Source: a virus. From it: a stretch of 64,000 nt of DNA. Under the pieces are notes generated by a model, which worked only from the letters and a program-made list of their open reading frames with translations, did no database searches and had not been told where the DNA came from. This document shows positions 29,171-49,905 of this stretch, piece by piece. A program made the position numbers and the translations under genes. The stretch covers positions 28,146 through 92,145 of IMG/VR virus record IMGVR_UViG_3300033150_001135. One strand, written 5' to 3'. Positions within the stretch are counted from its first letter, which is position 1; the number at the start of each line of letters is the position of its first letter.

Positions 29171-29884
29171 ATGAAAGGGATTAAAACATTGTTTTTCATT
29201 ATCTTTTGTATGTTGTTGTCGATACTAGTTTCTGTGTTTTATACTAGATCAGAACTAGTTGTATTGAAGAGAGGGTTAGCAGATACTAATTCTAAGATTG
29301 AAACGGTTGGAATAGTATCGAAGCAACTTTTGCTGTACCAGAAGATTGAAGATGTTTGGTTTGAGAAGGGTAGTAAGTACATGAACTATGACGAGCTTCG
29401 AGAACTCGCACGTCAGACATATCGTTACCATCAAAAGTATGGTTCTGAAGGAGAGTTTCCTATAGGACTTGACTACTGGAAAATATTCGCTATAATAGAA
29501 GTGGAAAGTAATTTTAATCCGATGGCGGAAAGTTATGCAGGTGCGATTGGTTTAATGCAAGTTATGCCGCTAACAGCAACAGGAGTGTTAGAGAGGGAGT
29601 TTGATTTGAGAGGATTAACTAGACGACAAGTTTTAGAGAAACTTAAGAATCCTGTGATGAATTTTCGAATAGGGGTGGCACGACTAATAGAATTACAAAG
29701 ACGATACATAGCATTCGGGTCAGCAGGAAAAGATGACTGGAAGCTTGCTTTGAGTAGTTATAACTGGGGAACTAGGGCTGTTTCCTCCTTAATGGAAGCT
29801 TACGAGAAAGAAACCCCTAAAGCATCATTACGGTATGCTATTTTGGTTGAGCAACGGATGAAAAGATACAAAGAGGAGAAGTAA
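29171..29884 (+). CDS. Membrane-anchored lytic transglycosylase (SLT fold)
   Basis: 237 residues. An N-terminal hydrophobic anchor (about 5-25), then an SLT domain with catalytic Glu in EVESNFNP (about 111-118), AGAIGLMQVMP (about 123-133) and SSYNWG (about 197-202). It cleaves peptidoglycan. It is the first gene after promoter 2 and far from the tail genes, so it may be an endolysin, or an enzyme acting early on the wall. Confidence 0.85.
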   Translation: MKGIKTLFFIIFCMLLSILVSVFYTRSELVVLKRGLADTNSKIETVGIVSKQLLLYQKIEDVWFEKGSKYMNYDELRELARQTYRYHQKYGSEGEFPIGLDYWKIFAIIEVESNFNPMAESYAGAIGLMQVMPLTATGVLEREFDLRGLTRRQVLEKLKNPVMNFRIGVARLIELQRRYIAFGSAGKDDWKLALSSYNWGTRAVSSLMEAYEKETPKASLRYAILVEQRMKRYKEEK

Positions 29885-30906
29885 TGGAAGATAAAGTGAC
29901 AAAAGTAGTTACTTGGGATTGGGAAGTAGTTACTTGGGACGAAATTAGAAAGAAAATAAGTAAGTGGGTGGAAACTGTACTAAACGACTCACTAAATGAC
30001 CCAAAACATTACTTACCAGATGTTGTATTAGGAGTAGATAGAGGAGGGGTTCCCCCAGCAATAATACTATACAACGAACTTTGTTATTCTAACGTAGGAG
30101 ATAGTATTGAATATAGGACTGTAAGTCCTTTTGTAACGGATGTTATGGAAGAGTTTTCTGGTAGACGAGTTATCTTGGTCGATGATATTAGTGATACAGG
30201 AGCTACGATAGATTTTTTGAAAAAGGATGCAAAGAAACATAATGTTGATCTACTTCACGTGTTTACTTTAGTGAAGAGAAAGGAAGGAGATAGAGCTACT
30301 TGGTATGTATTTCCTTGGGAAACTGCGAAAGATACTATAGGGGGACGAGAACAAGCAGCTGTTGCTATTCTACGTAGTATAGGTGAAGATCCATTGCGTG
30401 AAGGACTTTCTAAAACTCCCTACCGTGTAGCTAAAATGTATGATGAACTTTGTATGGGGTATGGTCAGGATCCAAAAGAGGTTCTTAGTACAACATTTAA
30501 CGCTAACTCCTACGATGAAATGATTATTTCAAAAGATATTCGATTCTTTTCTTTATGTGAGCATCATATTCTACCATTCTATGGAAAAGTCCATTTCGGA
30601 TACATACCAGACAAGAGAATAGTAGGGGTATCTAAAATAGCACGTCTGGTGGATGTGTTTGCTCGTCGTTTACAAATACAAGAACGTATGACAATGCAAA
30701 TAGGGCAAACTTTTGAAAAAACTATTAAACCAAAAGGAGTAGGGGTAATTGTGGAAGGAGTACATTTGTGTGAAATGATGCGAGGTGTTCGAAAGGAAAA
30801 TGCTCCTATGATTACTAGTTACTTAGGAGGTACTTTTAGAGATAATGAAACGAGAAGTGAGTTTTTGAGACTAGTAAAATTTGGTTGGCAAGGAGGGGAA
30901 ATATAA
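29884..30906 (+). CDS. folE: Phosphoribosyltransferase-GTP cyclohydrolase I fusion
   Basis: 340 residues. Residues 1-150 form a type I phosphoribosyltransferase with the PRPP loop VILVDDISDTGATI (about 97-110) and VDRGGVPPA. Residues about 160-340 are GTP cyclohydrolase I with the zinc motif CEHHILPFYGK and HLCEMMRGVRK. FolE converts GTP to dihydroneopterin triphosphate, the first step to 7-deazaguanines. The PRTase may salvage a purine towards GTP, or act on a deazapurine base. Starts in a TAATG overlap with the transglycosylase gene. Confidence 0.9.
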   Translation: MEDKVTKVVTWDWEVVTWDEIRKKISKWVETVLNDSLNDPKHYLPDVVLGVDRGGVPPAIILYNELCYSNVGDSIEYRTVSPFVTDVMEEFSGRRVILVDDISDTGATIDFLKKDAKKHNVDLLHVFTLVKRKEGDRATWYVFPWETAKDTIGGREQAAVAILRSIGEDPLREGLSKTPYRVAKMYDELCMGYGQDPKEVLSTTFNANSYDEMIISKDIRFFSLCEHHILPFYGKVHFGYIPDKRIVGVSKIARLVDVFARRLQIQERMTMQIGQTFEKTIKPKGVGVIVEGVHLCEMMRGVRKENAPMITSYLGGTFRDNETRSEFLRLVKFGWQGGEI

Positions 30907-31943
30907 TGATGGAACCACTTTCTTGTATTTATTTAACAAGAGCTTGTCCTATGAGATGTAAGTATTGTAGGATTCGGGACGCAATTAACATAGGTAAGCA
31001 ACTAAGTTTACCTCAGTGGTTAGATGCGTTTCAGATATTGAAGGATTTAGGAGTGGTATTTCATTTAGTTTTAGGAAATGAAGTGTTGATGCTAGGTAAG
31101 GACTTTGTGGAACTTGTTAAGTTTTGGGAGAAGAATAGTATCAGATATGCCGTATATACCACATTCCCGCCAAAGTTGTGGGAAAAATATAAAGAACTAC
31201 TAGTTGATGCTGGATTGAGAAATATTAGTTGCGGATTTGACTACTACCCGTTTTCTTCTAGTCATGACCGTTCTAAGGAGTTGGGGGATATAGCAACAAA
31301 GTCAATACGAGGATTTGAAGGAGTGAAGTGGGCAAGGAAGCATGGAATTTTAGATACTCAGCTTACTACTACTCTTTCCCCTATAAACTATAACATTGTA
31401 CCTTCTATGATAGAACTAGTGAATAAGTATGGTATATGGGCAGCATTTAATATAATTCATTACGATAGAGATGGTGAGTTTGATTTCTTCCCTCCTAAAG
31501 AGGAAATTCTAGAACTTTTACCAACTTCCTCTAGGGATCGTCGTAATCTTAGACGTATGGCGGATGTGGTTAAGGAGATGATAGTTTCTGGAAAGCATAG
31601 AATTCAAAATCCTCCTGCCTTTTTTGATGCGTTTAAGGAGTATGGAATAAGTTTGGATTGGCATTGTTCTTTGGATTCTTTTATGTATACGGTGGATGCA
31701 GACGGACGAATGCGAGCATGTGGCTATAGGAGGGGTAAACGGTCTCCTCAGTACTCAGTTTTCGACTTGCCGAAGCATTTAGATTCTTTTCTTGAGGACA
31801 ATAGAAAAGATCGGAAGGAGTGCCCAGGGTGCTTTTGGAGCTACTGGTATATGGCGGAATACTACGAGAAGAAGACCGAGTTTAGAAAAGAATTTTTTAC
31901 TGATCATGCTTCAGAATTTTATATAGAAGGAGATAAGAAATGA
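30906..31943 (+). CDS. Radical SAM protein with C-terminal Cys cluster
   Basis: 345 residues from ATG 30906 (TAATG overlap; AAGGAGGGG upstream). CPMRCKYC (about 15-22) is the CxxxCxxC 4Fe-4S site for SAM cleavage. Cysteines near 272 and 306-309 (CGYRR, CPGC) suggest a SPASM-like auxiliary cluster. Embedded in the deazaguanine operon, it may tailor the modified base or a sugar. The substrate is unknown. Confidence 0.8.
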   Translation: MMEPLSCIYLTRACPMRCKYCRIRDAINIGKQLSLPQWLDAFQILKDLGVVFHLVLGNEVLMLGKDFVELVKFWEKNSIRYAVYTTFPPKLWEKYKELLVDAGLRNISCGFDYYPFSSSHDRSKELGDIATKSIRGFEGVKWARKHGILDTQLTTTLSPINYNIVPSMIELVNKYGIWAAFNIIHYDRDGEFDFFPPKEEILELLPTSSRDRRNLRRMADVVKEMIVSGKHRIQNPPAFFDAFKEYGISLDWHCSLDSFMYTVDADGRMRACGYRRGKRSPQYSVFDLPKHLDSFLEDNRKDRKECPGCFWSYWYMAEYYEKKTEFRKEFFTDHASEFYIEGDKK

Positions 31944-32653
31944 AATATATAGTAATTACAGGGGCAAGTAAAGGAATAGGACATAAGTTATTAAGTGATC
32001 TTGTAGCAACTTTACCAGAGAGCGACTATAGAATCATACATATAAGTCGTACCCCTTCTAAGTTGCTATCTTCCTCTACTTGTACTTGGATAGAAGCAGA
32101 CTTAAGTACTGAAGAAGGGCTTCTAGACTGTCAGTTTCGTTTAACACGACAGATCGAAGAAGAAGAATTAGTTGTTTTAGTAAACAATGCGGGAGCTATG
32201 CCTTTGGGGCAAAGTTTTACAGAAACTACGTTTAAACGGTATAACGAGGTTATGGATTTGAATCTAAAAGCGGTGTTCTTTATGTGTAAGTTTTGTATAC
32301 CACTGATGTTGGACGGAGGGAGAATTGTTAACGTATCCTCTACTTCAGGAGTGAGAGCGGAGGAGGATGAGCATATAGTTCCTTACGGGGTAGCGAAAGC
32401 AGGAGTAATAATGCTAACTAAGTATCTTGCTCGTCTCTATCCTAGACTTTGCATTAATTCTGTGTCACCAGGATTTGTGGCTCCTACGGAGTTGGTACCA
32501 GGGGAAACCCCTAAATCCTTAATTGAAAGTATACCAAAGCAGCGGGAAGCAACAACGGGAGAAATATCCTCTATTATTCAGTATCTTTGTTTTGGTGACT
32601 CCGACTATATAACTGGCCAAAATTTTGTAATAGATGGAGGTAGTTCATTGTGA
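31940..32653 (+). CDS. Short-chain dehydrogenase/reductase
   Basis: 237 residues: TGASKGIG (about 7-14) for NAD(P) binding, NNAG, catalytic Ser in VSSTSG, YGVAK (Tyr/Lys), and SPGFVAP. This is a complete classical SDR, ATGA-coupled to the radical SAM gene and to the kinase gene after it. The substrate is unknown. Confidence 0.88.
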   Translation: MKYIVITGASKGIGHKLLSDLVATLPESDYRIIHISRTPSKLLSSSTCTWIEADLSTEEGLLDCQFRLTRQIEEEELVVLVNNAGAMPLGQSFTETTFKRYNEVMDLNLKAVFFMCKFCIPLMLDGGRIVNVSSTSGVRAEEDEHIVPYGVAKAGVIMLTKYLARLYPRLCINSVSPGFVAPTELVPGETPKSLIESIPKQREATTGEISSIIQYLCFGDSDYITGQNFVIDGGSSL

Positions 32654-33621
32654 GACGTAGTACAGATAAGAAAATTTTCGTTATAGGGGACGTAATGTTG
32701 GATCGTTATATCTACGGAACTACCACTCGTTTGTCTCCTGAGGCACCAGTTCCTGTAGTAGATATAAGCAGAGAGTCCCACTCGCTAGGGGGAGCAGGTA
32801 ACGTATACCAGAACTTAAAAGCACTTGGGGCACGAGTTGCTCTTTTCGGAGTTGTTGGGGCGGATTTACAAGGGAAGTTAGTTAAGGATTTAGTAGTGGG
32901 AGAACCGGTAGGTCTTCAGATTTCTCGTAGTAAACCCACGACTACAAAGACTCGTATCGTAGCGCGTCAACAACAACTTATTCGTTTGGATAGAGAAGAT
33001 AGAAGTGAAATAGAGTGGGAAGCAAGAGAAGCTATTAAAAGTTACGTAATAAGTAACTGTAAAGATGTAGATGGTATTGTTTTTTCAGACTATAACAAAG
33101 GGGTTGTTACAGATGCTTTAGTTACTCCTATTTTGGAACTTGCTAAGAAACGAGATATTCCAGTATTTGTAGATACTAAGAGAAAGGATGTATCCCTTTT
33201 CAATCCTATTACTTTTATTACCCCAAACCACGTGGAACTGGGGAGAGTTACTTTTTGGGACGAACGTCCATGTGAGACAGAAGAGGAAATAAGAAGAGGG
33301 GTAGAACGGTTGTTTAAAGCGATCGATACTAAGTATGTGATTGTAAAAAGAGGGGAGAATGGGACAATGTCCTTTGAGAAGAGAAAAGATAAAGTAGTGA
33401 GTTTCAGAGCTCTCGTACAGACTAGGAAAGTATACGATGTAACAGGAGCTGGGGATACTGTGTTAGCGGTGGTGGTACTAACTTATCTTATGGGATATTC
33501 TATAGAGGAGATAACAAAATTCGCTAACAAGGCGGGTGGTATGGTAGTAGAAAAAATGGGTACTGCCCAGGTAAAGAAGGAAGAACTATTTAACTTAGAA
33601 AAAGAAAAGGAGAGTAAATGA
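32650..33621 (+). CDS. PfkB-family sugar kinase, HldE kinase-domain-like
   Basis: 323 residues from GTG 32650. GDVMLDRY start, SPEAPVPVV, LGGAGNVYQNLKALGA, and DVTGAGDT (anion hole and catalytic Asp) closely follow the heptose-7-phosphate kinase domain of HldE/RfaE. The C-terminal adenylyltransferase domain is absent. The role in a phage modification operon is unknown. Confidence 0.85.
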   Translation: MRRSTDKKIFVIGDVMLDRYIYGTTTRLSPEAPVPVVDISRESHSLGGAGNVYQNLKALGARVALFGVVGADLQGKLVKDLVVGEPVGLQISRSKPTTTKTRIVARQQQLIRLDREDRSEIEWEAREAIKSYVISNCKDVDGIVFSDYNKGVVTDALVTPILELAKKRDIPVFVDTKRKDVSLFNPITFITPNHVELGRVTFWDERPCETEEEIRRGVERLFKAIDTKYVIVKRGENGTMSFEKRKDKVVSFRALVQTRKVYDVTGAGDTVLAVVVLTYLMGYSIEEITKFANKAGGMVVEKMGTAQVKKEELFNLEKEKESK

Positions 33622-33622
33622 A

Positions 33623-34435
33623 ATGAGAGTATTAGCAGTAACATCAGGTGGTATGGATTCTATGGCAATGGGGGTAAAAGCTAAGCATGATGGACATGAA
33701 GTAGTTTTATTTCATGGCGATCTTGGGCAGAAGGCTGAACTACCTGAAAGGCGCGCAGTAAGAGTTTGTGGGGAAATATTAGGAGTGTCTACATACTTTG
33801 TTGATTTGTCGTGGGTTGGTAAGCTAAAAGGTAGTGTACTGACTGATCCAGCATTGGAGGTACCAAAAGGAATCGAATCACTTCGTGAAAGTAACCTTAT
33901 CACAAAAGACTATAGAAAGAAACAACATAAAGGGAAAGGTCTTTGGACTCCTGCTAGAAATGTCATTCTATTGGCGTCGGCTTCGGTATACGCAGAGAGA
34001 TATGGGTTTGATATGCTTACTTTGGGTGCTAACCAAAGTGAAACGGCTTATCCAGACAATAGACTTGAGTTCTTGAAACGGTTTGAATACATGTTAGAAT
34101 ATGGTACTTTAAGAGACATTGAAGTTTCTGCACCATTGTATGAAATGGACAAAGTTGACTTGGTAGAATGGGAATGGAAGAACGGCTATTCTAAAATACT
34201 TGCTCATACGTGGAGTTGTGACTTAGGAGAAGTGTATCAATGCGGAGAATGTGGATGTTGTATGAACCGGAGGTTGGCTTTCTACATAGCAAAACAAAGA
34301 GTGCCTGGAATAGAGGACAATCAGAGGTATGAGAATGAGAACTACTTTAGAGAGGTCTATCTACCAGCGATTCGGAAACCTGGTGCTATGAAAGGAATGT
34401 GGTTTGAAAAATATAGTGAACTTATTCTAAAGTAG
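33623..34435 (+). CDS. queC: QueC-like 7-cyano-7-deazaguanine synthase, copy 1
   Basis: 270 residues. The PP-loop SGGMDS (about 8-13) binds ATP; TPARNVILL and GANQSETAYPD follow the QueC pattern; SCDLGEVYQCGECGCC (about 198-213) is the zinc site. QueC turns carboxy-deazaguanine into preQ0 through the amide intermediate ADG. A second, more divergent copy follows within 20 nt. Confidence 0.85.
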   Translation: MRVLAVTSGGMDSMAMGVKAKHDGHEVVLFHGDLGQKAELPERRAVRVCGEILGVSTYFVDLSWVGKLKGSVLTDPALEVPKGIESLRESNLITKDYRKKQHKGKGLWTPARNVILLASASVYAERYGFDMLTLGANQSETAYPDNRLEFLKRFEYMLEYGTLRDIEVSAPLYEMDKVDLVEWEWKNGYSKILAHTWSCDLGEVYQCGECGCCMNRRLAFYIAKQRVPGIEDNQRYENENYFREVYLPAIRKPGAMKGMWFEKYSELILK

Positions 34436-34454
34436 TGAGGGGAGGCGCTTAGTT

Positions 34455-35156
34455 ATGAGGAGAAAAAAAGATGTATTGATGTGGTCAGGTGGATTAGATT
34501 CGACGATTGCATACTTCTACTTGGGAAAGCCTCGTACTGTGTTTGTAGATTTGGGACATCGTTATGCTAACATAGAACGACTTACCACAGCTACGTTGGC
34601 TAAAGAGTTGGATATGGATTACGTTGTTGATACGAGATTGTTTCTAGGTGATATGGAGAAGGAAGATGCTGAGATACCAATGCGAAATATGTTTCTAGCT
34701 ATGGTGGGTGCTTTGTATGGAGACAATGTTTATATGGTTTTTCAGAAAGGGGAACAGAGTTTACCTGATCGTAGTATAAGGTTTGTTAAAGGAGCATCTC
34801 GTCTTCTATCGTACTTGAATAGTAGAACAGTGGAAGTTTGTAATGTTTTTCCACATCTTACTAAGGCACAAATGATTAGTTGGTATCGTAGTAAGGGATA
34901 TTCTGTAGATATACTATACGAAACTGTTAGTTGTTTTTCTGAGGATGAGTCAGAAATACCATGCGGACGGTGTAAAGCATGCTTTAGAAGATGGATAGCA
35001 TTCGAATGCAATCATTTACCAGTAGGATTCAATAACGATATAACAAAGTGGGATGGAATTCAAGAGTATGTGAAGAAAATGAAGGCAGGGGAATACGATC
35101 AACAACGAGTTAAAGAGACAAAAATAGTATTGGAGCGATATGGATTATGGAAGTAA
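34455..35156 (+). CDS. QueC-like PP-loop protein, copy 2
   Basis: 233 residues. PP-loop SGGLDST (about 11-17), IPMRNMFLAM, QSLPDRS in the QueC substrate region, and zinc cysteines in SC..., CGRCKAC (about 160-180). It is clearly of the QueC family but divergent from its neighbour. The two may form a complex, catalyse the two half-reactions, or use different substrates. Confidence 0.75.
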   Translation: MRRKKDVLMWSGGLDSTIAYFYLGKPRTVFVDLGHRYANIERLTTATLAKELDMDYVVDTRLFLGDMEKEDAEIPMRNMFLAMVGALYGDNVYMVFQKGEQSLPDRSIRFVKGASRLLSYLNSRTVEVCNVFPHLTKAQMISWYRSKGYSVDILYETVSCFSEDESEIPCGRCKACFRRWIAFECNHLPVGFNNDITKWDGIQEYVKKMKAGEYDQQRVKETKIVLERYGLWK

Positions 35157-36244
35157 AATGGGAATTTAGAAAGTTTTGTAGAATATTTGAAATAGTGAAC
35201 AAGTTTTCTTCTCCTAATGATATTTTTCCTCCTAGTAATTATATTTTTGTAGATGCAAAGTTAGGAGGGGTTGCTGTGATATCCTTAGTTGGTGGTGTTC
35301 TATACTACGGGGGGGTGGATACTGCATTGGAAAATGGAGTTTTTCCTATTTCTGTCTTTAGTAAAGTTAGTTCTTTTGTTTCGAAACATGAAAATTTAGT
35401 GGTTAAGAAATTGGAGGATGGTCGTTGGAAATTGACTATAGGACGACTTCGAGTTTACATGCCTTCTATACAAGAAGTTGAATGTGGGTTACCAAGTATA
35501 GAAAATGATGCTATTGTAGCGTTTTCTAACGATGTATTTAATACCATGGGGCGTATGTTATTTTCTGTATCAAAAGATATGAATCGTGTAAATCTTTACG
35601 GTATATGGTATTCACATAAAGATGGTAGACTTTACTGCTCTGATAACTACCGTATCGTGCGAACTGTTCAAGACCACTTGCTAGACAACGTTTCAAACGA
35701 TGTATTTTTTCCTAGAAGATTTCTTGAGCGTACATTTAGTTTAGATGTTTCTCCAGAAGGATTTTCAAGTGGAAACGTTCTTACTTTCTATTATAGTGGA
35801 AAGGAGGAATTTATTTGTTATACTAAGCTCCCCGAACCTAAGATGCCTCCATTCTTAGAAGTGTTTGAAAAATTAGAAGGAGGGAAGCGTATAGCTACTA
35901 TACTTCTAGATACTAGTAAAAGTACATTACTGGATTTTAGTACACTTTTACGTGAGCAAAGTGAGTGGGGTAGATTGAAGGTTTGGATAGAAGGTCAAGA
36001 ACTACTTATAGAAAACTTAGCAAATACTAGTGATGGATCTGACAAAAGTGGGTCAACTTTTAAGCTATCTATTCCAGTTGTGAAATTAGAAAGTGATGAA
36101 AAAAGTATTTCTTTTGTAACTACTACAAGGTTTTTCTTAGAGGCGTTACTCCGTTTCAATTCTTTTGATATTGTTTCTGATAAATGGTTATACTTTAGTA
36201 ACGAAGAGATTGAACACATTGTTTACCTAGTGAAAGGAAAGTAA
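35147..36244 (+). CDS. Divergent DNA sliding clamp (DnaN-like)
   Basis: 365 residues, the length of bacterial beta clamps. The central segment FSVSKDMNRVNLYGIWY...GRLYCSDNYRIVRT matches domain 2 of DnaN (a V-x-x-D-x-x-R...L-x-G core followed by A/S-T/D-D-x-x-R). Overall strand-rich in three blocks. Located two genes before the DNA polymerase. Identity is by pattern and position. Confidence 0.65.
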   Translation: MEVKWEFRKFCRIFEIVNKFSSPNDIFPPSNYIFVDAKLGGVAVISLVGGVLYYGGVDTALENGVFPISVFSKVSSFVSKHENLVVKKLEDGRWKLTIGRLRVYMPSIQEVECGLPSIENDAIVAFSNDVFNTMGRMLFSVSKDMNRVNLYGIWYSHKDGRLYCSDNYRIVRTVQDHLLDNVSNDVFFPRRFLERTFSLDVSPEGFSSGNVLTFYYSGKEEFICYTKLPEPKMPPFLEVFEKLEGGKRIATILLDTSKSTLLDFSTLLREQSEWGRLKVWIEGQELLIENLANTSDGSDKSGSTFKLSIPVVKLESDEKSISFVTTTRFFLEALLRFNSFDIVSDKWLYFSNEEIEHIVYLVKGK

Positions 36245-36246
36245 GT

Positions 36247-37215
36247 ATGGATACTACGACTAAATTTAAGTTGTATTTTGTTATACATCCTGTTCCTACT
36301 TTTAGAATGCAGGAGTTTTTTGAAAAAGGATTATGGAACCGGTTACTTTGTAGTTTTGCTTACAAAGAAAATATATACCAGTTTCTAGAGGCAGTGGATG
36401 ATCCTCACAAAGTGGAGATATTACTTGATAGTGGGGCTTTTACAACAATGACACAAGGTAAAGAAGTAGACATTGATGCATACGTTGACTTTTTGTGGGA
36501 AATGAAGGAGAAGAACTTTAAGTCGTTGTATGCTATTTGTCTTGACACTATTCCTACGGAGTTGGAAACGACACACTTGAATAAGTGTGCAAGAGAGACA
36601 TTTGAAACTTACCAGTATATACGAAGTAAAGGAATAGATTTTGTGGTTCCAGTTTACCATACAGGTGAACCTCTTAGCTGGTTGGATAAGATAGTTGAAG
36701 AGGGGTGTGACTATATTACTGTTGGTGGGGTAGCGAGACGATCGACACGTTCACATAAGAGAGATGCATTTCGTAGAGTTTTCATAAAACTTAGTCGTTT
36801 AGGGTATACTGGTAGAATGCATGGGTTAGGGGTTTACGCATCGGAGTTTTTGAAGGATTTTCCATGGTATTCGGTTGATGCAGCTACAGCTTCTTTGGGT
36901 TCGGGATTCGGAAGTGTTTATGTGTTTGACCCAGAGGTTGAAGAGGTAAAAGCGTACAATGTTTCGGGACTAAAGGCTGGTAGTTCCTCAAATAAAGTAC
37001 GAACGGAGATTGAGAAGAAAGTTTTGGTTAAGTATTTGAATAATGTTGGGTTGGATATAGAAAGTTGGGATGATTTGTCGGAGTATTATGTCCGGTTGGA
37101 GGCATCCTACAGATCATGGAGAGCTTTTGAAAAATTTCTAGCTTCTAGTACTCATTTGAAGAGAAATAGGTTTATGAGTGATGGATACCAAGGTAGTTTA
37201 GACGATGAATTTTGA
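36247..37215 (+). CDS. dpdA: DpdA-like tRNA-guanine transglycosylase homologue (DNA modification)
   Basis: 322 residues. LDSGAFTTM (about 60-68, nucleophile/substrate Asp region) and TVGGVARRSTR (about 158-168, GG-V motif), GLGVYA, then a DAATASLG segment, as in TGT-fold DpdA proteins. The tRNA-binding C-terminal domains of true TGT are missing. Known phage DpdA enzymes exchange guanine in DNA for preQ0 or derivatives. AAAGGAAAG precedes the ATG; the gene overlaps the polymerase gene. Confidence 0.85.
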   Translation: MDTTTKFKLYFVIHPVPTFRMQEFFEKGLWNRLLCSFAYKENIYQFLEAVDDPHKVEILLDSGAFTTMTQGKEVDIDAYVDFLWEMKEKNFKSLYAICLDTIPTELETTHLNKCARETFETYQYIRSKGIDFVVPVYHTGEPLSWLDKIVEEGCDYITVGGVARRSTRSHKRDAFRRVFIKLSRLGYTGRMHGLGVYASEFLKDFPWYSVDAATASLGSGFGSVYVFDPEVEEVKAYNVSGLKAGSSSNKVRTEIEKKVLVKYLNNVGLDIESWDDLSEYYVRLEASYRSWRAFEKFLASSTHLKRNRFMSDGYQGSLDDEF

Positions 37216-39718
37216 CGAAGAACAACAAACAGTAGTTTTTAAACAGGAGGAACTGTTGACTCCTAGAGAGATCAAAAAGTATTTTGGTGTTGGGGTTAGG
37301 GGGCATGGTAAACAACGTTTGTATTCTTTGGATGAAGTGGAGGAGTTGATTAAGAACGGGACTTTTAAGAAATTGGATTCTAAAGCTCCTACAAATCCTT
37401 GTGATACGTGTCCTTTTAAGGGAAAGAAACCTGTTCCAAGTAGTGGTGACTTTAGAAAAGCGAAAGTAGTTTTTGTGGGGGAAGCTCCAGGAAGAAACGA
37501 GGAAAGAGAAGGGATACCGTTTATAGGACAAGCAGGAAGAGTATTAAAGAGAACAATGTCGGAGTTGGGGATTAAAGAAAGTGATGTTGTTTTTACAAAT
37601 ATATGTCGTTGTCGTCCACCCGGTAACCAGCCGCCTCCTGAAAAAGTAGTAAGTAGTTGTAAAAAGTATCTGTTAAAAGAGTTAGAAGAGTTTAAGGGAC
37701 TTATAGTTTTATTGGGTAGTACTGCTTTACAAGCTTTGCTGGGTAAATTCGGAGTATTGAAAATACGGGGGTATGGGTTCTTTAAAGAAGATAGAGACTA
37801 TCTGGTTACCTACCATCCGGCGTATGTATTACGTAACCAAGGAACTGAAGTTGAGAAAAACTTTACTGAGGATCTTAGGAAGGTAAAACAATGGATGGAT
37901 GGTCCTAAAAGTATACTATATGAAACAATAGATACTCCTGAACGATTCGATACGTTTTTGGATAGGATTAGTAGGGTTACTAAGTTTTCTTTTGATCTTG
38001 AAACAACTTCATTGTCTCCATTTGATGAAGATTCAAGAGTATTGTCTATTTCTTTTTCTTGGGGGGAAGGGAAGGAGAAGAACTGGTTTCTACCGTTGGA
38101 ACATAGTTCTAGTCCCTTCTTAGGAGAAACTAGTAAACTAATGAAGAAGCTTCAACCAGTATTCGAAGACAAGGAGAAAAAGATAGTAACTCAGAATGGT
38201 AAGTTTGATGTGAAGTGGCTTAGAAAAAAGTATGGAATTATAGTCAAACGTTTGTGGTTTGACACTATGTTGGCACACTATCTTATAGAAGGTAAGTATG
38301 CTCCTAGAAGTTTGAAGAGTATGGTTTGGAGTTATGATACTGGTTATGGAGGTTATGCAATTTCTACTGATAACCTAGATAAGTTACCGTTAAAAGAAGT
38401 GGGACGATATAATGTTATGGATTCTTTTCTCACTTATCTAATAGCGAGGAAGCAGAAAGATAAGTTACTAGAAGCACAATACTACTTGTTAACACGAATT
38501 CTATCTCCTATTCAGCAAGTTCTAGCTGAGATGGAACTAAGTGGAATTAAATTGGATTGGAATACTCTTGTTTCAAGAGTAGAGCAGACACAAGAAGAGT
38601 TGAAGGATTTAGAGACACGTATGCATGGTTACAAAGAAATAGAGGAGTTGGAAGAGAGAAATAGTAGTCTTGTAAATTTTAATTCATCGAAACAGTTGGT
38701 AGAAGTATTTGGAGCTATCGGTATCTACCCTGCTAAGAGAACGAAGAAAACTGGTTCCGTTTCCACTGATAATGAAGCATTGAAAGAAATTGAAGGGAAA
38801 CATCCTGTGGTAGGTGACCTTCTGGAATATAGAAAAGTTGGTAAAATTCTTTCAACATACTTAGCGCCGTATTATGAGAATTCTAAGGATAGGGTAGTAC
38901 ATGCAAACTATCTACTAGATAGGACTGCTACGGGGCGTTTGTCATGTGAGAATCCTAACCTGCAAAACGTACCTGTTGATGTGAGGAAAGTGTTTACGTG
39001 TAAGAATGACTTTCTATTGGAAGCTGACTATTCACAACTAGAGTTACGTGTGCTTACTTGTTATACGAAGGATGAAAAGTTTGTGGAAGCTTTTAGTAGC
39101 GGCGCTGATATCCATGAAGCAACTCGTTTCAGCATGTTTGGAGAGGAGACTGATCGAAGAAAAAAGAAGGAACAAAGGGTGAAAGCAAAAGGAGTAAATT
39201 TTGGGGTAGTATACGGTATTTCGGAATTTAGTTTAGCAAAAGAATTGAAATGCAGCCACAGGGAGGCTAGGAAATTTATTGATAAGTTTTACGCTACTTA
39301 TGAAGGAGTTGCGAAGTGGGTACAAGATGTTAAAGATTTTGTTAAGAGTAACAAATACTACGAAACAGTGTTTGGGCGTAGAAGATACTTTAGATACTCA
39401 GTTCGTGATAGTATGGCGAGTAAGGAGGCAAAGTTAAGAGAGGCGGTTAACTTTCCTATTCAGTCTACTGCTAGAGACCTGGTTTTTGATGCAGAAGTTA
39501 GGATGTGGCGGGTGATGCGGGAACTTGGAATGAAATCAGAAATGATAGCCGATACGCATGACGCGGTTCTTTTTGATGTTGTGGATAAGGAGTTAGAGGT
39601 TCTAGTTGATATGGCAAAAACTATAATGGAGAATTTTGATCACTTCTCCTTCGTAAATGTACCTATTAAAATCGATCTTTCGTTAGGGAAGGTATGGGGG
39701 GAATTGGAGAAGTTGTAG
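37205..39718 (+). CDS. Family A DNA polymerase with N-terminal HTH and uracil-DNA glycosylase domains
   Basis: 837 residues, four modules. Residues about 15-55 are MerR-like (TPREIKKYFGV...YSLDEVEELI). Residues about 63-215 are a family 4 uracil-DNA glycosylase with CDTC, GEAPGRNE, TNICRCRPPGN and YHPAYVLRN, including the Fe-S cysteines. Residues about 260-420 are a 3'-5' exonuclease (FDLETTS, NGKFDVKWL). Residues about 440-837 are Pol A (DYSQLELR, KGVNFGVVYG, DTHDAVLFD). All catalytic motifs look intact. Confidence 0.9.
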   Translation: MNFDEEQQTVVFKQEELLTPREIKKYFGVGVRGHGKQRLYSLDEVEELIKNGTFKKLDSKAPTNPCDTCPFKGKKPVPSSGDFRKAKVVFVGEAPGRNEEREGIPFIGQAGRVLKRTMSELGIKESDVVFTNICRCRPPGNQPPPEKVVSSCKKYLLKELEEFKGLIVLLGSTALQALLGKFGVLKIRGYGFFKEDRDYLVTYHPAYVLRNQGTEVEKNFTEDLRKVKQWMDGPKSILYETIDTPERFDTFLDRISRVTKFSFDLETTSLSPFDEDSRVLSISFSWGEGKEKNWFLPLEHSSSPFLGETSKLMKKLQPVFEDKEKKIVTQNGKFDVKWLRKKYGIIVKRLWFDTMLAHYLIEGKYAPRSLKSMVWSYDTGYGGYAISTDNLDKLPLKEVGRYNVMDSFLTYLIARKQKDKLLEAQYYLLTRILSPIQQVLAEMELSGIKLDWNTLVSRVEQTQEELKDLETRMHGYKEIEELEERNSSLVNFNSSKQLVEVFGAIGIYPAKRTKKTGSVSTDNEALKEIEGKHPVVGDLLEYRKVGKILSTYLAPYYENSKDRVVHANYLLDRTATGRLSCENPNLQNVPVDVRKVFTCKNDFLLEADYSQLELRVLTCYTKDEKFVEAFSSGADIHEATRFSMFGEETDRRKKKEQRVKAKGVNFGVVYGISEFSLAKELKCSHREARKFIDKFYATYEGVAKWVQDVKDFVKSNKYYETVFGRRRYFRYSVRDSMASKEAKLREAVNFPIQSTARDLVFDAEVRMWRVMRELGMKSEMIADTHDAVLFDVVDKELEVLVDMAKTIMENFDHFSFVNVPIKIDLSLGKVWGELEKL

Positions 39719-39745
39719 TGACTGAGAAAAAAATTAAAAAAAGGC

Positions 39746-39774
39746 TTGATTTTTCTAACAAAGTTCTTTATAAT
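39746..39774 (+). promoter_or_regulatory. Sigma70-type promoter, copy 3, abutting repeat array 1
   Basis: TTGATT (39746-39751), 17 bp, TATAAT (39769-39774). The expected start of transcription is near 39781, which is the A of an ATG and six bases before the first 36-bp repeat unit. Any mRNA would be essentially leaderless. Confidence 0.8.
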
Positions 39775-39780
39775 AGAAGT

Positions 39781-40260
39781 ATGAGAGAGCGAGCCATAGT
39801 CACTGAGAAATCCATGAGTCAAGAGCGAGCCACGTTAGGAAAGAAACCCAGTCGAGAAGAGCGAGCCATGATCTCAAAGAAACCCAGGACGAATAAGCGA
39901 GCCACCTTTCCAAAGAAACCCAATGAAAAGGAGCGAGCCACGGTTCATGAGAAACCCACGATACTTGAGCGAGCCGTAATCGCTGAGAAATCCATGAATA
40001 GAGAGCGCTATCTAAAAACTAAAGACAGCATGAAAGAGAATTGGCAGTTCCTACAAAATAAGACATTGCGTATGCCTACTACTGCCCGCTGTCGAATAAA
40101 TGCTTGCAGAGGATGTTCCTACTTAGAAACTGATACTTTCTGCTTACATCCCGTAAGCATCATAAATTATGTGGTTAGTAGCCAGCATAAAACGGTTCCT
40201 ACTATATTAACCCACTTACACCACATACCGTTCGCTGGCATTTTAAAAGGAGAATCGTAA
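39781..40260 (+). CDS. 12-residue-repeat protein with C-terminal Cys cluster
   Basis: 159 codons. Residues 3-75 are six ERAxxxxEKPxxx-type repeats encoded by the 36-bp array. The C-terminal part has CRINACRGC and a later Cys, a possible zinc site. The first ATG coincides with the predicted transcript start, so translation would be leaderless; a later internal start for the Cys domain alone is possible. In array 2 the same register is interrupted by a stop. Confidence 0.45.
   Translation: MRERAIVTEKSMSQERATLGKKPSREERAMISKKPRTNKRATFPKKPNEKERATVHEKPTILERAVIAEKSMNRERYLKTKDSMKENWQFLQNKTLRMPTTARCRINACRGCSYLETDTFCLHPVSIINYVVSSQHKTVPTILTHLHHIPFAGILKGES
39787..40012 (+). repeat. Bipartite 36-bp repeat array 1
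   Basis: Units begin at 39787, 39823, 39859, 39895, 39931, 39967 and (partial) 40003, exactly 36 bp apart. Consensus: box A GAGCGAGCCA, 8 variable bases, box B GAGAAACCCA (A/G first, one C/T change), 8 variable bases. The variable bases differ in every unit. Confidence 0.9.
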
Positions 40261-40261
40261 C

Positions 40262-42352
40262 ATGGAAAACTATTATATTCCTGCATTACGGCTTTTTAGA
40301 AGTGTAGTTGTACCGGATATTGGAGGAAAAGTTAGTAAGGAGAAGTTTGAGGAAGTAGCAGAAAAGACTGTAAAACGAGGTTACATTTTTTCTCCTGAAG
40401 TTTTGGCTCACTACTACGATCATGTTGATAAGATCGTTGAAGCTGTGGAAACGTTGTATGGGATGTCAGCAGAGAAACTTAATGCATCCTTTCATAAGTC
40501 ATGGAAAAAAGTAAGAGATACAAATCTTGAGGACTTGATAGTACAACAGCTGGCACATTATCTTACTACTTATGGGAAAGAGAGTCCTGGTGCTTACGTG
40601 GAAGAGAAAGAATGGCAATGGAATGTAGAGAATTTAGCAGAAAAGATTGTTTCTTTAGATGATTTTGAGTCAGATAAGCTATTGGATAGAGACTACGTTT
40701 ACATTCCTAGTGAGGAACTTAAGATACCGGAATTAGGAGTGGGAGGTATCGTTAAGTTGGTTATTATTCGAGGACTTACGAAAGAAGTGATATGTGAGAA
40801 GTTGGTAACATTCCTCAGTACTGGTATAGCGTTAAAAGAACAAACTGTAAAAGATGTTCTAACTGTGGCGGAAATGGTTGGTTTTGAAGAAATTGAGAAA
40901 GTAAAGAATAAGGAAGTTCGATGTGCATTATCCTCAAAGTTAGAAATTGTACCCCGTGACCCAGTTGAGTTTCTTAGAGTAGCTTTGTATGTAGCTACCG
41001 GAAGTACTTTGATCATAAAAAGTAGTGACTTAATGGAACGGATAAGGAATACCGAGAAAGGAAAAGAAGTTCGAGCAATATTTGATAAGTATATATGGAA
41101 GTATGAATTATCATATCTTGCTAGTATCTTTTACCGGTTTAAACCATTGTTTCTTGCTTTCAGGTATATTGATAAGGATTTGAGGAGAACTATTAATATA
41201 ATCAGGCGACAAGCTCCAAAGTACCATAAACCAATGAAAGTGGATTATTTGAATACAATTACTGAGAAACTTCAACAGCAGAAACCTGTATGTAAAAAAG
41301 AAATGGAGGAAGCTTTAGAAAGAGTTAACATATTTAGAAAGATACGGCTAGCATACGCACTCAAGTTTCGAATGGCTGAGCCTGAGTCGGTATTGTATAG
41401 AATACGAAATGGTAGTGCTTGGGCAACTGGTTGTAAGGTTAGAGAAGGAACAAGTTACGAGTTGTATAAAACGTTTTCTGTGGTGAGGGATTCTATTGTA
41501 CACGATCTCCTAAAAGCAACTAAAGAAAAACGAATTTTTATACCAGACTATATTAACTATGCGTTACCAGCTACTGAGAAACAGTTTACCGGTAACTTAC
41601 CATCAGGAACTTTTATAGAAGTAAAAAGTGAAGACTTAATTGTAGGAGTACATTGGGAAAATGTTAAACGTGACAAAAAGATGACATCCGATGAAGTAGT
41701 AGCAGACGCTATTTGGGGGAGTGAGGGGGACAAGGATAGTAGGCGAATTGACTTAGATTTTTCTATCATTACTGCTGATCGTGGTAAGATAGGTTGGGAT
41801 GCAAGGTATAGTACTAAGGATCAGGATATTTTGTTTTCTGGTGACTTAACTGATGCAAAGAAACCAAAAGGAGCTACAGAGTTATTCTATATTCGAAGAC
41901 AACCAGCAAAAACAATGCTTTTTAACCTCAACTACTTCAACTATACTGCTGGGGTGGAAGTTCCATATAAGATTTTTGTAGCTAGTGAGAAAGTGGCAAT
42001 GTTAGGAGAAAACTATATGGTTAATCCAAACAATGTGATTTTGTCGGTTAGTTCTATGATTAACAAGAAGCAGCAGATCGTAGGTTTGCTTATACCAGGC
42101 GAAGAGATTTGTAGATTTTACTTTATAGAAACTAATATAGGAGTTTCTGTTACAGCGGTGGATTCAGAAATATCACAACATGCTAGACAATACTTGGTTG
42201 ACTACTATAAGAATACAATTGGACTACGGGAGTTGTTGGTAGATGCGGGAGCAGTATTGGTTGAGGATAAGGAGGATGCTGAGCTTGATCTGTCGCCAGA
42301 GGCTTTGGAAAAGGATACAATTATTAATCTAGTAAAAGGAGAGAATGGATGA
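40262..42352 (+). CDS. Large uncharacterised cytoplasmic protein
   Basis: 696 residues, soluble, mainly helical for 480 residues, then a beta-rich C-terminal region (RIDLDFSIITADRGKIGWD...). The N-terminus (FEEVAEKTVKRGYIFSPEVLAHY...LNASFHKSWKKVRD) resembles large proteins I have seen in other phages and Firmicutes that lack an assigned role. It is flanked on both sides by the 36-bp arrays and begins two bases after the preceding stop, behind AAAGGAGAA. Confidence 0.7.
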   Translation: MENYYIPALRLFRSVVVPDIGGKVSKEKFEEVAEKTVKRGYIFSPEVLAHYYDHVDKIVEAVETLYGMSAEKLNASFHKSWKKVRDTNLEDLIVQQLAHYLTTYGKESPGAYVEEKEWQWNVENLAEKIVSLDDFESDKLLDRDYVYIPSEELKIPELGVGGIVKLVIIRGLTKEVICEKLVTFLSTGIALKEQTVKDVLTVAEMVGFEEIEKVKNKEVRCALSSKLEIVPRDPVEFLRVALYVATGSTLIIKSSDLMERIRNTEKGKEVRAIFDKYIWKYELSYLASIFYRFKPLFLAFRYIDKDLRRTINIIRRQAPKYHKPMKVDYLNTITEKLQQQKPVCKKEMEEALERVNIFRKIRLAYALKFRMAEPESVLYRIRNGSAWATGCKVREGTSYELYKTFSVVRDSIVHDLLKATKEKRIFIPDYINYALPATEKQFTGNLPSGTFIEVKSEDLIVGVHWENVKRDKKMTSDEVVADAIWGSEGDKDSRRIDLDFSIITADRGKIGWDARYSTKDQDILFSGDLTDAKKPKGATELFYIRRQPAKTMLFNLNYFNYTAGVEVPYKIFVASEKVAMLGENYMVNPNNVILSVSSMINKKQQIVGLLIPGEEICRFYFIETNIGVSVTAVDSEISQHARQYLVDYYKNTIGLRELLVDAGAVLVEDKEDAELDLSPEALEKDTIINLVKGENG

Positions 42353-42612
42353 ATAAAGATCGGGGACTGACTAAAGGTGGACGAACTTATACTCTTATTT
42401 CTACTACAACGATGAATATGAAGCCTAATAGAAAGAGAAACCCACTGAGTATGAGCGAGCCAAAGCAAAGGAGAAATCCAGTAATACTAAGCGAGCCACT
42501 GCGCGGGAGAAACCCAAGCCAGATGAGCGAGCTACGTGACAAAAGAAACCCATTTATAACGAGTGCGCCACTTTCCCTAAGAAACCCAAGCCAGAGGAGC
42601 AGGTCATTATAG
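42349..42612 (+). CDS. Doubtful ORF reading through array 2
   Basis: 87 codons, ATGA-coupled to the large gene. From residue about 28 it reads the array in a register different from arrays 1 and 3, giving RNPxxxSEPxxx-like 12-residue repeats. In the register used by arrays 1 and 3, this array has a TGA at 42537-42539 and no start. Coding status is uncertain. Confidence 0.25.
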   Translation: MNKDRGLTKGGRTYTLISTTTMNMKPNRKRNPLSMSEPKQRRNPVILSEPLRGRNPSQMSELRDKRNPFITSAPLSLRNPSQRSRSL

Positions 42613-42686
42613 TTGAGAAACCCATGCAGGATGAGCGAGCCAACTTTTCGAAGAAACCCAAGTTGAGAGAGCGAGCCAAAGTATTA
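42435..42686 (+). repeat. Bipartite 36-bp repeat array 2
   Basis: Box A copies begin at 42453, 42489, 42525, 42561, 42597, 42633 and 42669, exactly 36 bp apart; a box B precedes the first at 42435. The 42561 and 42597 copies are degenerate. Between the array and the next gene lie two TAAAGAATTAA direct repeats (42720-42730 and 42744-42754). Confidence 0.88.
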
Positions 42687-42769
42687 AAGAGAGGAGGTAA
42701 AGTATAAGTAAAGTAATTATAAAGAATTAAGTAATTTAACTAGTAAAGAATTAAATATGGAGGGTTTAA

Positions 42770-43468
42770 ATGATTAACCAAACAAAAAGTATGAAAGCAG
42801 TCGAATTAATTTTCGACTGGAATTTGTGGCCAAGATGTGAAGCTGGAGACTTGGATTCAACTCACATGAAAAGGTTAAAAGAGGCTATGAAGACCGGTGT
42901 TAAAATGCCGCCAGTAATAGTGAATAAAAAAGATAACCGATTGGTTGATGGGTTTCACAGAACCAGAGCCGTCTTGGATTTATACGGAGAGCAAGCTGAA
43001 ATAGACGTTGAATTGAGGGACTATAAGTCAGATGCAGAAATGTTTATTGCTTCAGCTGAATACAATTCTAAGCATGGTATTCCTTTGTCACCAAAAGACA
43101 GAGCACATGTTATTATAAAGGCTAAAAAGTTTGGAATACCCGTTGAAAAAATAGCTTCTGCTATAGGTGTAACTGTAGAAGAATTGAAAGACTTTTTTAA
43201 GAAACGGACAGCGGAAACAAAGGAAGGTGAGTTTGTAGCGTTACCTTATGGGGCATCTCAACTAGCGGGGAGAAGGTTAAGTAGGAAACAAGAAGAATTT
43301 GTCAGGTCTTCAAACGGAACCCCACCTCTGGTTTATGCTCGAATACTTTTGAATGGATTGAACGCTAATGCTATAATTTTAGACAAGCAACATTTGGAAG
43401 TTTTCGAGCTTTTGTACAATAAGTTGGGTGAAATTTTAGCGGAGGTTGGAAATGGAAGACAAAATTAG
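42770..43468 (+). CDS. ParB-like nuclease-domain protein
   Basis: 232 residues. Residues about 10-85 are a ParB/Srx-type domain with VDGFHRTRAVL, followed by a helix-turn-helix-like region (IPVEKIASAIGVTVEELKDFF). Such phage proteins may regulate transcription or process DNA. GGAGGG precedes ATG 42770, downstream of array 2. Confidence 0.75.
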   Translation: MINQTKSMKAVELIFDWNLWPRCEAGDLDSTHMKRLKEAMKTGVKMPPVIVNKKDNRLVDGFHRTRAVLDLYGEQAEIDVELRDYKSDAEMFIASAEYNSKHGIPLSPKDRAHVIIKAKKFGIPVEKIASAIGVTVEELKDFFKKRTAETKEGEFVALPYGASQLAGRRLSRKQEEFVRSSNGTPPLVYARILLNGLNANAIILDKQHLEVFELLYNKLGEILAEVGNGRQN

Positions 43469-44231
43469 AAATTCTATAAAGATTCTAACTCGAACTTACT
43501 ACGATTACCAGAGGGAGCGGATTTCTTTAGACGGAAGGATGGGACAAAAAAAGGATGGGAGTCTTAAAAGTAAAGCACCTCCTAGAGACGATACAATTTT
43601 AGTGGAACTTTACAAACGTAGAAAAGAAGTTATTGGGATGGAACAAGCTATAGAAAAACAGATTAGTAAGGAAGTTCACGAGCATCCTTTATGGGAGGTG
43701 TTCCTGAAACATGTTAAAGGTTGTGGGGAAATGATGGCTGCGGTTTTAATATCAGAAATAGACATTCGTATTGCAACAACTGTTTCAAAACTTTGGCAGT
43801 TTGGGGGATTGAATCCAAGTTTGGTTTATGGTAAAAAGGTAAAGAATGGAAGAATTGTGGTAACAAGAGACAAGATACCAGGAGATCGTAAAACAAAAGG
43901 ATACCTTTGTCCATACAATCAGTTTCTAAAAGCTAAGTTACTTGGGGTGCTTGGTTCTGGGTTTTTAAAAAAGAACTCTGATTATAGGGTGTATTACGAC
44001 AATATGAGGAAGAGGTTGGAGGCTAAAGATTGGGGAAAGCCAAGTAAGAACCCTACGAAGAAAGACAATCCAAAAGCACTGCACCAGCATAACGCAGCAA
44101 ATCGTTATACGGTGAAGATGTTTTTGAAGGATTTGTATGTAGCTTGGAGAACGTTGGAGGGGTTAACTGTAAGAAAGACCTACCAGGAAGAGTATTTAGG
44201 ATACAGTCATGAAGAAGGTGAAGTGGTGTAA
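43452..44231 (+). CDS. Protein with IS110-transposase C-terminal-like HhH domain
   Basis: 259 residues; GGAGGT at 43441-43446 selects ATG 43452. The N-terminal 80 residues are charged helices without the DEDD/RuvC domain of IS110 transposases. The centre (HVKGCGEMMAAVLISEI...LWQFGGLNP) matches the helix-hairpin-helix C-terminal domain of the IS116/IS110/IS902 family. This looks like a domesticated DNA-binding derivative rather than an active transposon: no inverted repeats or partial copies are seen. Confidence 0.6.
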   Translation: MEDKIRNSIKILTRTYYDYQRERISLDGRMGQKKDGSLKSKAPPRDDTILVELYKRRKEVIGMEQAIEKQISKEVHEHPLWEVFLKHVKGCGEMMAAVLISEIDIRIATTVSKLWQFGGLNPSLVYGKKVKNGRIVVTRDKIPGDRKTKGYLCPYNQFLKAKLLGVLGSGFLKKNSDYRVYYDNMRKRLEAKDWGKPSKNPTKKDNPKALHQHNAANRYTVKMFLKDLYVAWRTLEGLTVRKTYQEEYLGYSHEEGEVV

Positions 44232-44270
44232 AGGTAGGGAGTGTGAGTTATACTGTAAAGGACTTATGTG

Positions 44271-44435
44271 ATGAAAGAACGAGCCATGGCAAGTAAGGAA
44301 CCCCAAAACTGGGAGCGAGCCATCATAGAAGAGAAATCCAGACTCAATAAGCGAGCCATCCTTCCCAAGAAACCCAATGAAAGGGAGCGAGCCAAAGTAA
44401 GTGAGAACCCCACAGATCAGGAGCGGGTCATATAA
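44271..44435 (+). CDS. Short ORF spanning array 3
   Basis: 54 codons giving the same ERAxxxxEKPxxx repeats as array 1 (for example NKRAILPKKPNERERA). The ATG at 44271 has no clear ribosome binding site. It may be translated, or the frame may be incidental to a nucleic-acid element. Confidence 0.3.
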   Translation: MKERAMASKEPQNWERAIIEEKSRLNKRAILPKKPNERERAKVSENPTDQERVI

Positions 44436-44448
44436 TTTGAGAAACTTA
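44277..44448 (+). repeat. Bipartite 36-bp repeat array 3
   Basis: Units begin at 44277, 44313, 44349, 44385 and 44421, exactly 36 bp apart, with the same two boxes; the first and last are degenerate. It immediately precedes the recombination operon. Confidence 0.88.
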
Positions 44449-44476
44449 CGTATGAGAGTTTTTAAAGGAAAATAAA

Positions 44477-48896: not shown

Positions 48897-49225
48897 AGTA
48901 TCTTATATTTTCTGATCTTCATAGTCATAACTATAGAGAGTTTACTACTATGGAGCGTGACGGGGTAAGTAGTAGATTACAAGATTGTTTAGATGTGGTT
49001 GAACAAGTAACTGAATACGCGGTAAGGAGGAAAGTAGACAAAGTTCTTTTTCTTGGTGATTTGTTCCATCTTAAGAATAATCAAGATTCTCAAGTTGTTC
49101 GGTTGACCATGGATCAATTGAATAAGTTGGCGAAAAGTTTTCCGGTAACTATGTTACCAGGAAACCATGACTATAGAAAGTGGTCGTCGGAACCGGCTCT
49201 TCTACTGATCGTATTAATGTTATAA
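48893..49225 (+). CDS. SbcD/Mre11-like nuclease, N-terminal part (frame break follows)
   Basis: Contains the first metallophosphoesterase motifs: FSDLHSH (about 5-11), LFLGDLFHLKNN (about 52-63) and LPGNHDY (about 88-94). After GNHDYRK the frame runs into an unrelated short tail and stops at 49223-49225. The remaining motifs are in the -1 frame from 49177. A functional nuclease requires frame restoration. Confidence 0.75.
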   Translation: MKYLIFSDLHSHNYREFTTMERDGVSSRLQDCLDVVEQVTEYAVRRKVDKVLFLGDLFHLKNNQDSQVVRLTMDQLNKLAKSFPVTMLPGNHDYRKWSSEPALLLIVLML

Positions 49226-49905
49226 CGGAACCGGCGAAAAAGAAGGAGGATAAGTTTTACTTCTATTGGTTACCTTACTCTAGGAAAGTAACAGTGTTGA
49301 AAGATTGGATTAAGGAGAAAGTAGATACAAGGAAAGAGGAGTCTGTATTGTTTGCTCATGCTGATATAGAAGGTATGTGGTATAATGAATGGGTTCGTTG
49401 TGAGATGGGACTTGACCCAGAGATTCTTGAGAAAAAGTTTCGTTATGCTTTTGTTGGGCACTTTCATAAGATGATACGGCATAAAGAAAATGTTATTTCT
49501 GTAGGAGCAACTCATCAACATAATTTTGGTGAACGGAACTATAAAGTGGGATGTTGGATTTGGGATTCTAGTAACGATAAGTTAGAGTTTATTGAGAACA
49601 CAAAATCTCCTCGGTTCTATGCTTTCGACCTATCTGAAGGAGAGAAAATACCTAGTGGATGTAGGAAAACTATAGATTTCTACCGAATACAAATACCAGT
49701 GGGAAGTAAGATACCAGATGAAGTTAAGGGCTTGAAGTGGAAGAGAGTTAGTTTTGTTGGAGCGAAGAATAGTAGTAGAAAGAAAGGCACTATTTCATTC
49801 AAGGATAAGAATAGTGATCTTTTAGGAAAGTATGTTAACGTAAAAGTAGTGGGGAAAGAGTACGAGAAGAAGAAGCTTCTTAAAATAGGAATGGAGTATT
49901 TATAA
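49180..49905 (+). CDS. SbcD/Mre11-like nuclease, C-terminal part in -1 frame
   Basis: Open from 49177, just after TAG 49174-49176. GTG 49180 has no ribosome binding site. It holds the remaining motifs: RINVITEP, FAHADIEG (about residue 60) and FVGHFHKM (about 88), and the C-terminal cap domain. Together with the preceding part it would make a protein of about 335 residues, partner to the SbcC-like ATPase next door. Confidence 0.75.
   Translation: MVVGTGSSTDRINVITEPAKKKEDKFYFYWLPYSRKVTVLKDWIKEKVDTRKEESVLFAHADIEGMWYNEWVRCEMGLDPEILEKKFRYAFVGHFHKMIRHKENVISVGATHQHNFGERNYKVGCWIWDSSNDKLEFIENTKSPRFYAFDLSEGEKIPSGCRKTIDFYRIQIPVGSKIPDEVKGLKWKRVSFVGAKNSSRKKGTISFKDKNSDLLGKYVNVKVVGKEYEKKKLLKIGMEYL

Follow-up and report, generated by a model that had tools for sequence, protein, structure and literature searches.

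The window, i.e., the whole stretch of 64,000 nucleotides analysed here, runs from position 28146 to the end (92145) of a virus record of 92,145 bp. The record is that of a tailed phage, which encodes a tape measure protein and a DnaB-like helicase. The locus of interest is part of its replication/recombination region: a DNA polymerase is encoded upstream, and a single-strand binding protein, a UvsX-like recombinase, an exonuclease and an SbcC-like protein are encoded downstream. We annotated the following features, using the TIGR-Tas nomenclature introduced below.

39746..39774, + strand: promoter-like site TTGATT-17-TATAAT, a consensus match only, 12 bp upstream of array 1
39787..40007, + strand: predicted TIGR array 1, 6 units (spanning 39787-40002) with edge GAGCGAGCCA and loop GAGAAACCCA
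42423..42678, + strand: predicted TIGR array 2, a leading half-unit, 6 full units and a trailing edge
42770..43468, + strand: tasParB, encoding a 232-aa ParB-like protein; the gene overlaps the start of tasA
43452..44231, + strand: tasA, encoding a Tas protein of 259 aa with a Nop domain only; start codon ATG at 43452, alternative start TTG at 43446
44277..44456, + strand: predicted TIGR array 3, 5 units, of which the first and the last are degenerate

All three arrays keep an exact 36-bp period. Each unit is composed of a 10-bp edge (RAGCGAGCCA), an 8-nt spacer A, a 10-bp loop (RAGAAACCCA) and an 8-nt spacer B, where the first base of both boxes is A or G (R) and the spacers A and B are mutually unrelated in sequence. 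A scan of the window for GAGCGAGCCA-N8-GAGAAACCCA with up to 3 mismatches yields 15 matches, all on the + strand and within 39787-44412, while none is found in 100 shuffles. This bears out the three arrays, their positions and their period as reported in the first-pass annotation. The repeats of its 19 units hold as well but their number does not, since we count 17 full units (6, 6 and 5 for arrays 1, 2 and 3) plus partial ones, which the figure of 19 seems to include. Truncated edges are found at the end of array 1 (3'-truncated, GAGCG) and at the start of array 2, where a half-unit from about 42423 (5'-truncated edge plus loop) precedes the full units at 42453-42668 and the trailing edge at 42669. 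No further array was found in the whole 92,145-bp record.

The arrays sit between the main called genes and have the same orientation as the adjacent operon; the only gene call that overlaps array 1 is a doubtful 188-aa ORF. Each array is located upstream of a gene, as had been noted before, but the informative one (tasA, between arrays 2 and 3) had not been singled out. The number of promoter-like sites in the region is no higher than in shuffles, such that only the position of the site at 39746..39774 is suggestive. A simple scan for + strand terminators near the arrays gave none. The arrays have no match in Rfam, a literature search by the box sequences returned unrelated papers only, and comparing the translated repeat with named phages (tblastn) gave a single non-significant match.

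This anatomy is that of TIGR (Tandem Interspaced Guide RNA)-Tas, an RNA-guided DNA-binding system described in 2025 (PMC12045711). According to the text of that paper, TIGR arrays are defined by a pair of alternating repeats, each about 10 nt long, by 8-9-nt spacers, a period of 36 nt and truncated edges at the ends, typically with a truncated edge followed by a rho-independent terminator at the array end. The A-rich repeat is the loop, both repeats end in CCA (box C), and a drift of box D is tolerated if edge and loop change together. The arrays of this phage show two alternating repeats and spacers within the ranges known for TIGR-Tas (8-12 nt; 8-9 nt, up to 12) and a Nop-domain Tas gene next to the array. 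Box C (CCA) and box D are matched between edge and loop: across 1194 units from this and related loci (among the matches listed), both repeats start with RAG and end with CCA. Box D is AG in edge and loop alike, i.e., it has changed together in both, as the drift rule allows.

The protein evidence points the same way. TasA matches the NCBIfam model NF052498 (TIGR_Tas_endo) with E=2.1e-41 and 142 bits (cut-off 100 bits), and so do all 48 aligned members; the IS110 transposase domain is matched only weakly. When a profile of 48 relatives is compared with PDB, TasH ranks first (E=6.8e-52), followed by TasR (E=6.4e-46) and then IS621. Likewise, the AlphaFold model of TasA (pLDDT 93.9, pTM 0.88) matches the structures of TasR (9mty) and TasH (9vzx/9w03/21kl); the query TM-scores lie between 0.63 and 0.72. 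NF052498 spans residues 10-233 of 259, and residues 2-30 form one helix in the model. The span of the match leaves no room for a nuclease domain, that is, the protein is a Nop domain without HNH or RuvC and, lacking an N-terminal nuclease domain, is named TasA by the published naming. We thus regard the repeats as almost certainly being dual-repeat guide-RNA arrays of a TIGR-TasA system. The first-pass annotation had called the repeat unrecognised, which no longer holds given the 2025 publication and the existing NCBIfam model. It was right in that the arrays are not CRISPR, as they combine two alternating short repeats with 8-nt spacers in place of a single 25-36-nt repeat with spacers of similar size. 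Its suggestion of a processed RNA would fit the identity as a guide-RNA array.

The gene upstream of tasA, correctly described as ParB-like before, encodes TasParB, the known partner. The protein matches the ParB-like family PHROG 1033 (E=1.8e-14), and its AlphaFold model (pLDDT 92.1) resembles the N-terminal domains of Noc/ParB proteins (best E=6.5e-7). Across TasParB relatives, G61, H63 and R64 of its DGxHR motif vary hardly or not at all. The overlap of tasParB and tasA recurs with 4-8 nt in 8 of the 11 measured relatives, while both genes are 210-269 bp apart in the other 3. A tasParB-tasA operon with dual-repeat arrays of 10-nt repeats located upstream, between or downstream of the genes is depicted in Faure et al. 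2025 (PMC12045711, fig. S14). Here, too, the ParB-like gene is operonic with tasA and arrays lie around both, and the locus therefore belongs to this published arrangement.

Some observations concern other parts of the window. The 696-aa protein encoded between arrays 1 and 2 (40262-42352) has a weak, sub-threshold NCBIfam match only and no match in Pfam or PHROG. Positions 29884-37215 encode a GTP cyclohydrolase I, a radical SAM protein, two QueC-like proteins and a queuine tRNA-ribosyltransferase-like protein; the gene content of this cluster suggests 7-deazaguanine (preQ0-type) synthesis and, probably, DNA modification. Finally, a perfect 60-bp tandem repeat (2.2 copies, 9112-9243) is found inside a minor tail protein gene.

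The search for the two boxes in other viral DNA, as proposed along with the first-pass annotation, found the identical box pair in viral contigs, where it occurs in at least 118 stretches. Genome assemblies contain the pair in 12 stretches; Dehalococcoidia or Dehalococcoidales account for half of these, and other, mostly uncultured lineages for the remainder. These 12 stretches may be integrated or mis-binned viruses. Among the matches listed, a Tas protein is encoded within the piece fetched for 73 of 112 locus clusters, and 14 of 112 encode TasParB. For loci with Tas, 1044 of the 1045 units listed are on the tas strand, as is expected for a transcribed guide array.

We also compared the spacers between loci. 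Among the matches listed, divergent clusters have 31 exact A-loop-B pairs in common (17 distinct guides), or 86 pairs if up to 2 mismatches are allowed, where not all pairs are independent because several clusters are related. Randomly re-paired spacers, used as control, give 0 exact pairs, and allowing up to 2 mismatches raises the count to about 2. Only a single exact pair is common to divergent clusters when the register is shifted (B-edge-A), and it lies within a stretch that shares two consecutive units. Within genomes, 22 unit pairs with at most 3 mismatches are observed among the matches listed vs. 3.4 expected when B spacers are permuted; this phage itself has one weak paralogous pair, between arrays 1 and 3 (4 mismatches in 16). 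We thus conclude that what moves between phages and duplicates within genomes is the whole edge-A-loop-B unit. In the published systems (PMC12045711), it is this unit that yields the 36-nt tigRNA upon processing; searching the text of that paper, supplement apart, gave no observation of shared or duplicated spacers. The spacers of this phage are shared with none of the other fetched loci outside its own strain.

In the stretches compared around the arrays, a near-identical IMG/VR contig (L086/L093) does not differ from the window. L086 (IMGVR_UViG_3300033156_000769) differs from the window by a 28-base insertion/deletion around 49196, near the start of the 49180-49905 ORF. Large guide sets are found in L132, a Candidatus Colwellbacteria contig with 37 guides, as well as in L016, L018, L034, L047, L088, L101 and L125; among the latter seven, divergent viruses share guides in changed order. 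All eight are good material on how TIGR arrays grow.

Two other readings of the repeats had been offered before. If the arrays encoded a family of repeat peptides, i.e., 12-residue ERAxxxEKPxxx repeats, a reading frame should stay open through the repeats. This is the case for array 1 in one frame, across the 188-aa ORF, for which no family match was found. Arrays 2 and 3, however, contain stops in all three + frames. For the 1194 units from this and related loci (among the matches listed), we count 570/482/813 stop codons per frame compared to 621/528/844 expected for random spacers of the same composition. Stops are thus near random in every frame, which excludes a repeat peptide as the common explanation, and we give it practically no credence. 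The 188-aa ORF (39694-40260) is cysteine-rich in its post-array part (CRINACRGCSYLETDTFC) and may be a genuine small gene with its start near 40031, or else a product of chance.

The arrays could also be bound by protein at the DNA level, e.g., as iterons, operators or parS-like sites for the ParB-like protein, with the 8-mers as mere spacing. The adjacent ParB-like gene and the perfectly regular spacing would agree with such sites. On the other hand, 1044 of 1045 units share one orientation relative to tas, and the 8-nt spacers are inherited as fixed pairs, which is needless for inert spacing. Furthermore, most loci with the boxes encode Tas, while TasParB is limited to the 14 of 112 clusters (among the matches listed). 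We therefore consider a DNA-level binding array very improbable. Strand linkage and unit inheritance instead agree with transcription and processing to a Tas-bound 36-nt tigRNA, as would be the case for TIGR guide-RNA arrays.

Given this identity, we searched for sites the guides could address. From the 8-nt 3' overhang of the published geometry, we derived the predicted target: on one strand, spacer A is followed, after a gap of 0-2, by spacer B in reverse complement. In the own 92-kb record outside the arrays (four orientations, gaps 0-2), the best matches in the correct orientation have 2 mismatches in 16. Near-matches are about twofold more frequent than in the re-paired control but about equally high in wrong orientations, i.e., the surplus probably reflects base composition. 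In 1.2 Mb of related loci, the orientation of A and reverse-complemented B is not in excess over the spacer-pairing controls. Seven target scans of IMG/VR, six with guides of this phage and one with a guide that several phages have in common, gave many matches, the numbers of which differ strongly between guides. Many of them fall in families of the same prophage or of a recurring related virus, and no contig among the stretches fetched is matched exactly by two guides of this phage. As a result, no target can be named, and the natural target of the whole family is stated as unknown in PMC12045711.

These searches also bear on a variant of the TIGR identification, namely that the guides act on the phage's own genome, be it for self-regulation or as an RNA-programmed centromere for TasParB. 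A TasA without nuclease that is co-translated with a ParB-like protein would suit such a role. Yet no own site has fewer than 2 mismatches in 16 in the correct orientation, the counts stay within the range of the wrong-orientation control, and self-matches are not enriched across related loci. The absence of a well-matched own site argues against simple self-regulation, and we deem own-genome targeting unlikely, even if it is still conceivable through partial matches.

Our model of the TIGR-TasA system builds on the repeat anatomy and the non-coding character of the arrays, the identity of TasA and TasParB, their conserved operon, the strand linkage and the unit of inheritance, all obtained here. 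The arrays would be transcribed on the + strand within the phage's replication/recombination region, and cleavage of the transcript at the edge repeats would give about 17 tigRNAs, each 36 nt long and with 8-nt spacers A and B. A TasA dimer is predicted to hold the tigRNA via the paired AG...CCA (box D/box C) ends of edge and loop. The complex would then bind double-stranded DNA, with A and B pairing to different strands across 16 bp that are contiguous or almost so. The published family is our source for transcription, for the trimming to 36 nt, for binding by a dimer of the Nop protein and for the pairing of the two spacers to opposite strands.

Because TasA has no nuclease, it presumably binds and probably bends the DNA instead of cutting it; we consider RNA-guided, non-cleaving DNA binding by TasA likely. 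The co-translated TasParB would be the most likely effector, which may load or clamp at the guide-chosen sites and there block, silence or possibly partition the bound DNA; whether it acts at the guided site at all is an even call. The targets would be foreign rather than own DNA. A more tentative extension, possible yet doubtful, is that TasA-tigRNA constitutes an RNA-programmed loading site, i.e., the guides choose where the ParB-like clamp TasParB is deposited and from where it spreads. If so, phages would possess a centromere or silencing complex that can be programmed and used against other elements or the host, and its guides would pass between phages as whole edge-A-loop-B cassettes.

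The arrangement of TIGR-TasA with TasParB is already known. The locus is a compact example of it within a virus record of 92 kb, and its interest is in the open biology of the family and not in this copy. In the discussion of PMC12045711, the natural role, the targets and the array growth of TIGR-Tas are listed as open questions. Added here are the distribution of the boxes, the linkage to the tas strand, the sharing of whole units between phages and their duplication within genomes. The spread and duplication of whole dual-spacer units bear on how TIGR arrays grow, and inheritance as edge-A-loop-B is an independent evolutionary sign of what the functional unit is.

Compared to known systems, the locus resembles CRISPR-Cas in that an array holds variable guides between repeats; it differs in its two alternating short repeats and the split 8+8-nt guide, and no Cas protein was recognised among the proteins scanned. 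The likeness to the IS110/IS621 bridge-RNA transposases is distant and concerns the Nop-like region (profile E=0.0014; fold TM about 0.55), while this TasA is without their DEDD catalytic domain and repeated guide units replace the one bridge RNA. Closer are TIGR-TasR and TasH (9mty; 9vzx, 9w03, 21kl), which have the Nop fold, the guide architecture and the CCA box C of both repeats in common with our system. Here, the RuvC or HNH nuclease domain is absent, box D is AG where TasR arrays have UG, and spacers are 8 nt long as in the published SpTasH array, compared to 9 nt for TasR. Closest is the TIGR-TasA/tasParB operon (PMC12045711, fig. S14), which is alike in its Nop-only Tas protein, the ParB-like operon gene and the dual-repeat arrays with 10-nt repeats. 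Leaving the repeat sequences aside, nothing decisive differs from the operon in that figure, and what sets our locus apart is its three separate arrays, one of them beyond the gene of the 696-aa protein.
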